Source: Planosporangium mesophilum
GTDB taxonomy: Bacteria; Actinomycetota; Actinomycetes; Mycobacteriales; Micromonosporaceae
Assembly (NCBI RefSeq): GCF_016863255.1
Contig: NZ_BOON01000032.1
Coordinates: 1-64,000 of the forward strand
Reading direction: 5' to 3'
Length of the DNA: 64,000 bases
Shown: positions 14,630-18,206 of the stretch, piece after piece
Numbering within the stretch: position 1 is the first letter of the stretch
Layout of the letters: every line of letters begins with the position of its first letter
Notes under the pieces: generated by a model
Databases searched by the model: none
Told to the model about the DNA's origin: nothing
The model's input: only the letters and a program-made list of their open reading frames with translations
Translations under genes and position numbers: made by a program

Positions 14630-15253
14630 TCAGGTCATGATGGGGAAGATCCCGGCCGCGCTCCGGCCGGTCGCCGCCTCGATGAAGTCCACCGGCGGCG
14701 CCGTCTCCGCGAGAACCGCCGCGGTGTGCGCCAGGCCGGCGGCGGGCACTTCCGGCGGCGCGCCGAGCGCCTGCTGGAGGTCCAGCAGGTGGACGGTCGC
14801 CTCCACGATGCCGATGCTGACCGCCTCGTCGAGGCGGAGCATGGCGTGGCCGAAGTAGTCGATCACGACCGGGCCGAGTCGCCGGGCGGTTGCGATCGCC
14901 GTCGGGCCGACGGTGGCGAACGTTTCGATCATCTGAGCCGTGCTGTAGGCGGCCGCATCCTCGCGCGCCCCGGCCGCGACCTTGTCCGCACGGGATGTGG
15001 CGAGACCGTCCGGGCGGTTGAACTCCCGCAGCAGCGCGGCGGCGGTGTGATGCGTGGGATCGACGTCGCGGACCTGGCCGACCAGCATCGAGAATCCGAA
15101 GACCCATCCGCCGAGGTGCGCGTAGAGGCTGCGCACGTCCCAGTCGCCGAGGCGGGTCGGTCGGGCCCACTGCTCGTCGGTCATCGACCGGCCGTGTTCC
15201 TTCCAGGCCGACCAGAGTTCATCGAGTGTCGTGAGTCGATCCTCGATCGCCAT
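14630..15253 (-). CDS. Maleylpyruvate isomerase-family (mycothiol-dependent, DinB-like) protein
   Basis: Protein of 207 residues in the DinB-like maleylpyruvate isomerase family, in which many actinobacterial members use mycothiol. Visible features are the N-terminal helix LTTLDELWSAWKEHGRSMTDEQW, RLGDWDVRSLYAHLGGW (metal-binding His in the YAHLGG motif) and the closing metal-ligand region EATVHLLDLQQALG. The reaction of this particular member is unknown. The ATG at 15253 lies only 12 bases from the inverted repeat at the edge of the insertion element, so the native promoter has probably been displaced. Confidence 0.82.
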   Translation of the reverse strand: MAIEDRLTTLDELWSAWKEHGRSMTDEQWARPTRLGDWDVRSLYAHLGGWVFGFSMLVGQVRDVDPTHHTAAALLREFNRPDGLATSRADKVAAGAREDAAAYSTAQMIETFATVGPTAIATARRLGPVVIDYFGHAMLRLDEAVSIGIVEATVHLLDLQQALGAPPEVPAAGLAHTAAVLAETAPPVDFIEAATGRSAAGIFPIMT

Positions 15254-15287
15254 GCCCGGAGTGTACTGACTGCGTGTGTCCCTATTC

Positions 15288-15482
15288 GGGTTCACACCGG
15301 CTCCTCTTGACTGGCCCCAGCCGGGGCCGGTTCTTGGTTGCCGTCCGGGCGCCTGCCGTTCCTTGACGGCGGGTCTTCTCCCGGTTCCGATCCAGGGCCC
15401 CAACCCCTGTTCAGGGTCTTGGTGGTGCAGGGTGGCGGTCGGCTCTTTCCCGCTGCATGCGGGTGCAGACACGGTACGTGTG
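15288..15482 (-). ncRNA. Possible TnpB guide-RNA (reRNA) region
   Basis: About 195 non-coding, structured-looking bases follow the tnpB stop on the minus strand and end in AAGAGGAGCCGGTGTGAACC just before the element edge. They contain several short GC-rich self-complementary stretches. TnpB proteins use an RNA from exactly this position, ending in a guide copied from the flank. No boundary or structure was computed, so this is placed by position and family knowledge only. Confidence 0.35.
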
Positions 15483-16801
15483 TCAGGCGTCCGCAGGTTG
15501 CGGCGGTGAAGCAGATGGTCCGACTGCTGGTGCCGGTGCCCAGCGGGCGAGGTTGACCGCCGCGTTGACGTCGCGGTCGAGGACCAGCCCGCAGCCACAG
15601 GCGAACACCCGGTCGGTGAGGCTGAGGTTGGCCTTGACGGTGCCGCAGCCGGAGCAGGTCTTGCTCGAAGGGAACCACCGGTCGGCTTCAACGAGGTCGA
15701 GACCGTACCAGGCGGCCTTGTAGGTGAGCAGTCGCCGCAGATCACCGAGTCCGGCGTCGGCGACGTACCGGGCCAGCCACCTTAGCCGGCTCATGCCGGC
15801 GATGTTGAGGTCTTCGACGATGAGCCGGGTGAGCGTGGTCGCCAGTTGGTGCGACAGCTGATGGGCGAGGTTGTTGCGCAGGTGCGCGACCCGGGCATGG
15901 ACCTTCCCGAGCCGCGCGGCTGCTTTGCAACGGCCTGCCGAGCCTTGCTTGGTTCTCGCGTAGGTCTTGTTCGCTCGCCGCAGTGCAGCCTGTGCGCGCT
16001 GCAGTGCTTTCACCCCCTCCACCGCGTGCAGCACACGCCCGTCGGCGTCGGCCACCACGGCGAGCGCCTTCACCCCGACGTCCAGACCTGCCGGCACCGG
16101 GTGGCGCCCGGCGGGCGAGCGACGTTGGGGGTGAAACGGCGCCGCCAGCCCGATCAACGCGACTATCCACCGACCGCGCTCGAACCGGATACTCGCCGCG
16201 TACAGGTGCAGCCGTCCCGCCTCCAGCATCCGGCGCAGCTTCTTGGTGCAGCCGTGCACGCGAACGTCTCCGAACGTGGGCAGCCGAAGGCTCTTCGAAC
16301 CGGCGACCCTAATCTGCTGGGCCTTACCGGGCATGGCCCGGTTGCGCAGTCGAAACGACGGCACCGACTTGTGCTTGGGCTTGAACCTGGGGAATCCGGT
16401 CGTCTTGCCGGCCCGTTTCCCGCTGCGGGAGTCGGAGAAGTTGGCCAGCGCCTGGGCGGCGTTGACGGATGCGCACTCGAACACGTCGGAGGACACCTCG
16501 CCGCGCCATGCCAGGCCGCGGCTGCCGTCGGCGTTGGTCGGGCTGGTTGCCAGGTGCCCGTTTTTCCAGGCGTTGAACTCGTTGATGAACGAGAATTTGC
16601 TCCACGGCAGGCACGGCGTGAGGTCCGCCTCGGCAACGCCATAGGTGCGCTCGGCGGCGCGTTGATCGAGGTTGGCCTTCACCCGCGCGAGATGGTGGTT
16701 GAACGCGAACCGGCCGCCCCGGCGTGGGCCAGCAGCTGCCGGGACTGGTCGCAGGTCGGGTCGAGAGCGAACTTGAACGCCACCTCACGCGTCAAGGGCA
16801 T
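15483..16801 (-). pseudogene. tnpB: TnpB-family RNA-guided nuclease, frameshifted
   Basis: The main frame (399 residues from a GTG at 16682) carries the whole RuvC core: Asp in GLDVGVKALA (about 201), Glu in LIVEDLNIAGM (about 290), Asp in LDRDVNAAVNLARW (about 371), and a zinc site CSGCG ... CGCG. The true N-terminus lies in another frame: ATG at 16801 starts MPLTREVAFKFALDPTCDQS and leads to GAAGS, where the expected continuation RFAFNHHLARVKANL is found one base out of phase. One C appears to be missing from a run near 16725. Translation from the internal GTG would lack about 38 residues of the N-terminal domain. No TnpA partner is present. Confidence 0.8.
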
Positions 16802-16885
16802 ACCGGTGTGCGAGCGCAGTGGCTCGGTACGCGCCTGGCGTCTGGGCATGGGCCGGATGGTGCCAGCGGGCACCGACAAAAACAT

Positions 16886-17680
16886 TCAGCCTGTGGCGAG
16901 CGCCCGCAACACGGTCGCCACGCACGCGACCTGTAGCCACCCGGTCGCCGAGGCGGTCGTGTTCTCGAACGACTTCGCCAACCGTCGCGACCGGCCCAGC
17001 CTGCCGTGGGCCACCTCCACCCGCTAGGCGTACGCGATCGGCCGGAACACCGGCGACTTGTCCGGCCACCCGACCCGGCGCACCTCAACCTGGTGCGCCC
17101 GGGTGATCTCTCGGGCCGCGCGCTCTGTGGTGCCCCGGTCAACCAGGACCAGTTCGAGCCGGTCGGCCGCCCCGACCGCGGCGAGCTAGCCGAGCAGCTG
17201 TGCGGTCGCGTCGTTTTCGTGGGTGGACGCAGGCACCACCACGGCGCCCACCGGAAGTCCGGTCACGTCCACCGCGACCACACGCTTGGCCCCCAGCGTC
17301 CGCCCGTACGGGCCGCCCCGGTCGTGGAACGTCGCGCCCCCGTTGGAGGATCCGCGCGCTAGGTGACTGTCGACGACCACCATCGACGGAATCTCCTCTG
17401 TACGACCGGCGGCACGTCGAGCCGCCTTGTGCAGCACGGCCAGCAGCCGCGCCCAAGTTCCGTTGCGTGACCAGCGCCGAAACTGCGACCACACCCGTGT
17501 CCAGGGACCGAACGACTCCGGCAGGTAGCGCCACTGGCAACCGGTATGTGCCACGTACGGCATCCCGTCAACCACCGGCCGCAGGTCGTCCTTGAACTTC
17601 CGGCCACGCTTCCCTGGCGACTGTAGAACGGGCTTGAGCAGGTCCCACTGGGCATCGGTCAAGTCAGTCGCGTACGGCAC
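16886..17680 (-). pseudogene. IS5-family DDE transposase with two in-frame amber codons
   Basis: One continuous frame of about 265 codons from a GTG at 17680 (YATDLTDAQWDLLKPVL, the usual N-terminus) to a TGA at 16886. It is interrupted only by TAG at 17186-17188 and 17024-17026. All three catalytic residues are readable: Asp in VVVDSH (about 104), Asp in LVDRGTT (about 181) and Glu in RVEVAHG (about 222). The second amber sits where the family usually has tryptophan (TGG to TAG) and the first is one change from CAG. The frame is otherwise intact, so decay is recent. Confidence 0.8.
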
Positions 17681-17775
17681 TAACACCCAGTTCGGCAGCC
17701 GGGCGTGCGACTTGAGGAATAGGGACACACTCAGTGAGAGAGCGCCGGCGCCGTCGGGGCCCCCGCGGCCGCGTC

Positions 17776-17814
17776 GCAGCATCACTGTGCCCGCAGCATC
17801 ACTGTGCCCGCAGC
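17776..17814. repeat. 17-bp tandem repeat, 2.3 copies, covering the paaI stop
   Basis: The unit gcagcatcactgtgccc occurs twice without mismatch plus the first five bases of a third. The second copy contains the paaI stop codon at 17799-17801. Confidence 0.95.
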
Positions 17815-18206
17815 GTCCGGCTGCGACCGCGGAACTCGGCCACCACCTCGTCGCCGCGCCGCACGGTGATGTCGTAGATGCCGCTGCGGCCCTGGCGCAC
17901 CCGCTCGACCGCCTCGGCGACCAAGACGTCCCCCACCCGTACCGGTGCCAGGAAGTCGATCTCGGCCTGGGCGGCCACGGTCACCGAGCCCGGGTAGTTG
18001 CAGGCGCAGGCGAACGCGCTGTCGGCGAAGAGGAAGACGTATCCGCCGTGGGCGATGCCGTGTCCATTGATCATGGTCTCGGTCACCGTCATGCGCAGCA
18101 CGGCCCGGCCCGGCGCAAGGTCGACGGGCTCGATGCCGAGGGCGGCGGACGCCCGGTCCGCCGCCAGCATCGCCGCCGCGCCACCGTCCTGCCCGGTCGC
18201 CACCAT
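17799..18206 (-). CDS. paaI: Hydroxyphenylacetyl-CoA thioesterase PaaI-like
   Basis: Hot-dog fold acyl-CoA thioesterase, 135 residues from the ATG at 18206, which is preceded by GGGAGG; a longer frame adds seven residues without a better site. The PaaI signature is clear: TMINGHGIAHGGYVFLFADSAFA, with the catalytic Asp and the HGG turn, then AQAEIDFLAPVRVGDVL. PaaI clears dead-end CoA thioesters in phenylacetate catabolism. No other paa gene is in the window, so the physiological substrate is uncertain. Confidence 0.88.
   Translation of the reverse strand: MVATGQDGGAAAMLAADRASAALGIEPVDLAPGRAVLRMTVTETMINGHGIAHGGYVFLFADSAFACACNYPGSVTVAAQAEIDFLAPVRVGDVLVAEAVERVRQGRSGIYDITVRRGDEVVAEFRGRSRTLRAQ

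Follow-up and report, generated by a model that had tools for sequence, protein, structure and literature searches.

The window analyzed here, a stretch of 64,000 nucleotides (nt) from Planosporangium mesophilum (contig NZ_BOON01000032.1, positions 1 to 64,000), contains an insertion sequence (IS) of the IS5 family in which a DDE transposase gene is followed by tnpB. We consider it probable that this is an IS5-family element with a resident tnpB, whose right-end RNA (reRNA) would take its guide from the flanking DNA and direct TnpB to cut the empty donor site. As judged from sequence comparison, tnpB is almost certainly the resident second gene of a two-gene element, downstream of the DDE transposase. 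The window copy is referred to below as W, and the genome that carries it is referred to as G000.

The two-gene element and its relatives

In W, the frames of a DUF4096/DDE transposase and of tnpB (OrfB_IS605 and TNB domains) were both found on the minus strand, between inverted repeats at 15266-15287 and 17717-17738. The repeats are complementary at 20 of 22 positions, and about 0.007 pairs of this kind are expected by chance in a 3-kb stretch. An earlier note on this DNA, made from the sequence alone, had described these repeats as enclosing both genes, and its coordinates and pairing were confirmed. Because the element itself is slightly shorter and flanked by TGA/TGA (Table 1), the outermost bases of the 20/22 repeat are target duplication and flank. 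No other full copy was found at the DNA level in G000, so that W is the sole one.

Four Planosporangium genomes were searched, followed by base-level alignment. Two further full elements were obtained, L007 in P. flavigriseum (G001) and L008 in P. thailandense (G003). Both had the two genes and the two ends seen in W, at 66 to 68% nucleotide identity, and they were flanked by duplications of TAA/TAA and TCA/TCA, respectively, at unrelated sites with flanks unlike those of the window. The same ends were defined by this alignment and by the TNA duplications, with CAG-TNA at the tnpB end (the hyphen marks the element boundary), which bore out the earlier view of the repeat as the terminus of an IS5-like element. 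Transposase and tnpB were uninterrupted in both L007 and L008. The ratio of nonsynonymous to synonymous substitution rates (dN/dS, NG86) between the two was 0.21 for the transposase and 0.44 for tnpB; for tnpB of W and of L020 (see below), it was 0.28. Since transposase and tnpB have evolved together in three genomes, we regard tnpB as a resident gene and not, as the earlier note had it, as part of a TnpB element nested in the IS. Recent nesting was ruled out, as the composite aligns end to end in the three genomes.

Two deletion derivatives were present in G227, from another genus of the same family. L020 had an intact TnpB and, as read by eye, a remnant of the transposase start. The other one, L120/L124, was 917 bp long and kept both ends, a perfect TTA/TTA duplication, and a 19-residue transposase remnant. 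In the TnpB tree (18 rows), W, L007, L008, and L020 formed one clade with a support of 100/100. The TNA duplication was perfect in five of the seven elements with both ends found (W, L007, L008, L124, and L169, the last of which is described below). Within the clade, the window TnpB (15483-16682) grouped with L020 of another genus and not with the other Planosporangium copies (support of 96/92, and of 92/89 in a second tree), a sequence pattern hinting at possible horizontal movement.

The transposases P0001, P0002, and P0005 belong to the IS5 family, scoring 173, 172, and 182 bits against NF033580 (cutoff, 110), and the TnpBs P0003, P0004, and P0006 belong to the guided_TnpB family, scoring 210.7, 162.8, and 201.6 bits against NF040570 (cutoff, 100). 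The L008 TnpB scored 339 bits against IS607_TnpB, the cutoff of which is 350. The RuvC motifs of P0003 (GVDLG, EDLN, and DRDxNAA) were aligned to the solved 9yyg, an AI-designed relative; the natural TnpB 8bf8 was also matched. The RuvC D, E, and D motifs were readable in all four full composite TnpBs (L007, L008, L169, and L172) and in the translation of the window tnpB. The window copy is a dead, degenerate element in which both genes are broken: the transposase frame has two in-frame TAG stops, and tnpB, when compared with the intact relatives, is shifted in frame by 1 nt close to its 5' end. We took both stops as decay because tnpB is frameshifted too. With both genes broken, this copy would no longer perform the donor-site role proposed below.

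The last hairpin and the reRNA scaffold

The right ends of eight places (W, L007, L008, L011, L012, L020, L120, and L121) were aligned. With a 23-pair structure, 93.7% of the 174 cells were paired versus 27 to 41% when the partners were slid by 1 to 3 columns, and 8 of the 23 pairs had changed on both sides. The covariation score was reached in none of 500 shuffles. The sample is small, as its eight rows are related and come from few genomes, and the alignment tested is also the one from which the structure was drawn. The structure ends in the helix GTGTG..CCC-GAATA-GGG.CACAC. The stretch GAATAGGGACACAC makes up its loop and 3' arm, and the 3' arm is also the inverted repeat of the transposase. 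Thus, the last hairpin very likely lies within the reRNA scaffold, with its 3' arm common to the inverted repeat. The covariation of the hairpin supports the presence of the terminal inverted repeat (TIR) inside the scaffold, and the target-site duplication (TSD) may lie there as well.

Among 2,000 randomized upstreams for each locus, an equally stable hairpin arose in 21 for W, 18 for L007, 0 for L008, 49 for L020, and 19 for L120. The hairpin at the RNA end had values of -11.6, -14.2, and -13.9 kcal/mol in W, L007, and L008. No equal hairpin was found at the other end of these three full elements, where the values were -9.5, -1.5, and -6.2 kcal/mol, with other pairings. Ordinary IS607-type tnpB loci of the family were also inspected: a constant ...AACGG end was followed by a variable flank in 12 of the 14 examined, while L030 had no AACGG motif and L013 reached the end of its contig. 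Most of them had a GTG..CAC-like hairpin in the constant part, right before the variable flank. No known RNA family was matched in positions 14800 to 18200 of the window at an E value of ≤1, and in five loci the sole match was rmf in L011, under the gathering score and elsewhere in the locus.

Pieces resembling the 3' end of the scaffold were also seen in G000. L131 (G000:C58:48756-48878) and L132 (G000:C27:67924-68032) have a strong last hairpin and a CCG-TNR end, and they have neither tnpB nor a partner end. Similar pieces are L134, L140 (right after a ptsI-like gene), and L144. For all five, no partner end was found within 1.5 kb. They may be either relics or stand-alone RNAs.

Guide start, target motif, and proposed mechanism

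L020 and L120 are separate insertions in the same genome; their sequences agreed up to CAG-TTA and then diverged. The targets of the four Planosporangium-type copies with perfect duplications had the form C-TNA-R (CTCAG, CTAAG, CTCAG, and CTTAA). On anatomy and analogy, it appears reasonably likely that the guide starts after the TNA and that TnpB homes on the donor site. According to this proposal, the reRNA scaffold would include the inverted repeat and the duplicated TNA. The ~20 nt of flank that follow would form the guide and would be rewritten with each insertion. The DDE transposase would move the element, and TnpB would then cut the empty donor allele at the sequence matching the guide next to a target-adjacent motif (TAM), which would be the motif that the transposase itself targets (about CTNA). 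The element would then be restored by repair from the sister copy. The filled site would be spared because the element end CAG puts a G where CTNA has a C, giving a GTNA junction. A Nature paper from 2023 reportedly dealt with selfish spread.

Placing the guide past the duplicated TNA is in line with PMC10711439, where the TIR and TSD of Fanzors are predicted to be part of the scaffold and the flanking nucleotide of IS607 was shown to be. TnpB has also been presented, in PMC11870625, as a gene drive against IS-free copies in IS200/605. The IS607 TAMs measured in PMC11061315 differ from CTNA, being AGGAG and GAGGG.

Recurrence of transposase-TnpB composites

In six genomes, 15 transposase relatives were found, and TnpB adjoined four of them: L007, L008, the window transposase, and L161/L169. 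The last one is a second composite in P. flavigriseum (G001:C23:318446-320764; positions 2951-5256 of L169), a divergent element of 2,306 bp flanked by TAA/TAA. Its inverted repeat is GAGGCTGTGGACAGTTT / GGGACTGTGGACAGTTT (15/17), and both its transposase and its TnpB are uninterrupted. This TnpB had only 22 to 33% identity to the 17 others compared. The sole plasmid record with a close transposase was that of Miltoncostaea oceani (NZ_CP064357; class Thermoleophilia). Here, a third composite, L172 (NZ_CP064357.1:149289-151536), has an annotated IS5 transposase with a TnpB gene 58 nt further on. L172 has repeats and TNA flanks, TCA on the left and TAA on the right, which is not a perfect duplication. 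Its terminal repeat pairs with the 3' coding end of tnpB in a strong stem, and only 1 of 2,000 randomized upstreams was as stable.

A transposase tree of 29 rows placed the five composites together in one clade of eight rows, with a support of 100/100. The clade also holds L036, L037, and L160, which have no known tnpB. The transposase of L037 is interrupted by its contig end, and L036 and L160 yielded no left end; for the DDE-only relatives L010 and L036, none of the candidates was convincing. Because L036 and L160 are without a left end and L037 is cut, no member of the clade with both ends known lacks tnpB. The remaining 21 rows had no TnpB in the stretch covered. Among 79 transposase loci from the named-genome scan, TnpB was found only at two composites already counted. 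With the L172 transposase, 241 plasmid records were obtained at an E value of ≤1e-30, and the tnpB neighborhood was looked at for L172 only; in plasmids, the L172 TnpB matched only itself. Viral contigs yielded no further composite: two loci were found with P0001, three with P0005, and none with the L172 transposase, making four distinct loci, none of which had TnpB by hidden Markov model search. P0005 had no match in phages. The DNA of the second composite was found only in its own genome among 285 genomes of the family.

As far as these sequences show, the association of TnpB with related DDE transposases recurs. We propose tentatively that an actinobacterial IS5 transposase clade has repeatedly teamed with unrelated TnpBs, with the inverted repeat reused to form the final guide-RNA stem and with the TNA motif as the TAM, as an independent bacterial counterpart of Fanzors. 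If this were so, the identity of target motif and TAM would lock the specificities of transposase and nuclease together. The sharing of the TIR with the reRNA as a general class in independent lineages is likewise a tentative idea.

Evidence against the proposal and alternative explanations

Several observations weigh against the reading of a resident tnpB with a guide in the flank. The terminal hairpin of L169 was not significant, as 207 of 2,000 randomized upstreams were as stable, and the L169 target is GTNA and not CTNA. The duplications are imperfect in L020 (TTG/TTA) and in L172. The single-sequence fold z scores were weak for W (-1.42), L012 (-0.90), and L020 (+0.05), although better for L007 (-2.24), L008 (-2.67), and L011 (-3.40). 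No empty orthologous site of the window insertion was found: the thioesterase gene beside it has other neighbors in G002 and G003 and no match in G001. The elements are rare, since scaffold model R2 had matches in only 6 of 354 genomes of the family; the scaffold model matched in 1 of 394 genomes of a class sample (G000 itself) and in 2 of 60 genomes of the genus of G227, and a search with TnpB P0003 at an E value of ≤1e-90 matched in 1 of 384 (again G000). Finally, one of the nine scaffold-bearing places, L009 (L119, L142), has no such hairpin: it has 89% identity to the window only up to 15297, where the hairpin begins.

The break in L009 would also suit the explanation favored by the earlier note, namely, that a TnpB element inserted beside the IS5 inverted repeat, so that the guide begins in GAATAGGGACACAC, the IS terminus, and is directed against further copies of the IS or against its opposite end. 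The identities behind this idea are there: 14 of 14 bases, or 18 of 19 with CAGT, are common to the other end, where TTGAG precedes them at 17712-17716. However, the stretch belongs to a hairpin whose arms covary, and it was constant among copies at different sites; other copies put the end of the constant part at CAG-TNA, past GAATAGGGACACAC, which is the outcome that the earlier note had named as refuting its idea. The match to the opposite end is simply the inverted repeat, and it decays in relatives: over the last 19 element bases it was 17/19 in W, 14/19 in L007, L008, and L120, and 10/19 in L020. Decay of the match in both elements with intact genes is not what selection for targeting the other end would predict. 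Moreover, the genome holds no other full IS copy to target, and L009 is fragmentary, retaining 42 residues of tnpB, and its sequence is irregular before 15297. This explanation is therefore very improbable, and a guide made of the IS end was itself ruled out by the hairpin covariation and the unkept match.

Another possibility is that the IS5 element carries tnpB as a mere passenger that has no guide RNA function linked to transposition. The broken state of both window genes and the higher dN/dS of tnpB than of the transposase fit a passenger, but the RuvC motifs are intact, the genes are under purifying selection, the scaffold covaries exactly to the IS end, and the same DDE clade is paired with three divergent TnpBs; we consider a passenger unlikely. 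It is also known that nuclease-dead TnpB regulators exist. Since tnpB lies directly 3' of the transposase gene in the same orientation, the TnpB-reRNA complex might regulate the transposase or host genes instead of cutting the donor site. The readable RuvC residues of the four full composite TnpBs stand against such a role, which we find very unlikely.

Features of the window

The features of the element are listed in Table 1. Two further observations were made. Beside the element, at the end of the thioesterase gene, a 17-bp unit (CGCAGCATCACTGTGCC) is directly repeated in perfect tandem at 17775-17808. CTTGAG (17711-17716), between the transposase-end repeat and the gene, was kept in all three full elements, although the flanking bases differ.

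Table 1. Features of the IS5-family element in the window
Feature	Position	Strand	Basis
Whole IS5-family element, DDE transposase gene and tnpB	15270..17734 (2465 bp)	-	TNA duplication; L007 and L008 aligned
Target-site duplication copy 1, TGA (TCA on the tnpB strand)	15267..15269	.	sequence
Target-site duplication copy 2, TGA	17735..17737	.	sequence
Terminal inverted repeat, tnpB/reRNA end; bases 15274-15278 form the hairpin's outer 3' arm in the RNA	15270..15287	.	
Terminal inverted repeat, transposase end; no equal hairpin there in three full elements	17717..17734	.	
IS5-family DDE transposase, pseudogene	16895..17680	-	TAG at 17186-17188 and 17024-17026; intact relatives are NF033580
tnpB (IS607-like guided nuclease), frameshift near 5' end; 399-aa open frame 15483-16682	15483..16849	-	
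reRNA (omegaRNA) scaffold, 3' part (predicted)	15270..15400	-	covariation in 8 sequences; scaffold models R1/R2 match
Last scaffold hairpin, GTGTG..CCC-GAATA-GGG.CACAC	15274..15297	-	
Predicted guide start, first 20 nt past the TNA duplication	15247..15266	-	anatomy and PMC10711439

Comparison with known systems

What is known of TnpB comes from elements with Y1 transposases or serine recombinases, and the step to DDE transposons, with Fanzors, is known mainly from eukaryotes. If our proposal is correct, a bacterial DDE element that has intact TnpB and transposase and uses its inverted repeat also as a stem of the guide RNA would allow this step to be tested in common laboratory bacteria. The guide start, the matching of TAM and target, and the rescue of a cut-and-paste element from loss by TnpB would become testable as well. 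A TnpB-carrying bacterial IS5 element would then be a model of how Fanzor-like elements arise, with its own end in the guide RNA handle, a feature known from Fanzors. No bacterial IS5-family element with tnpB was described in the titles or abstract beginnings of the literature searched.

Like IS200/IS605 elements such as ISDra2, the element has TnpB, a predicted right-end RNA with a guide in the flank, and probable homing on the empty donor site. Unlike them, it has true inverted repeats and a target duplication. No Y1 domain was found in the six window frames scanned, and the genes of L007 take up 2,163 nt (stops left out) of the 2,445-bp element, leaving no room for a Y1 TnpA; the element thus does not belong to IS200/IS605. 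It is reminiscent of IS607 TnpB elements in that the L008 TnpB is near IS607_TnpB and the IS607-type loci of the family mostly have a last hairpin. However, a DDE transposase takes the place of the serine recombinase, and the ends are inverted repeats with TNA duplications, which sets it outside IS607. With the IS5 family (NF033580, transpos_IS5_3) it shares the DUF4096 and DDE_Tnp_1 transposase, the inverted repeats, and the TNA duplication, but in addition it has an accessory gene for a nuclease and an RNA end. Finally, it resembles the Fanzor1 and non-IS607 Fanzor2 elements described in PMC10711439 in placing a predicted RNA-guided nuclease in a DNA transposon with TIRs and TSDs. In Fanzors, both of these are predicted to lie in the scaffold, and the same may hold here. 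It differs from Fanzors in being bacterial, in its IS5-family transposase and 3-bp TNA duplication, and in its TnpB-type RuvC motifs: the DPG and alternative-glutamate signature given for Fanzors in PMC10711439 was absent, the motifs being DLG, DVG, or DRG and EDL or ETL.
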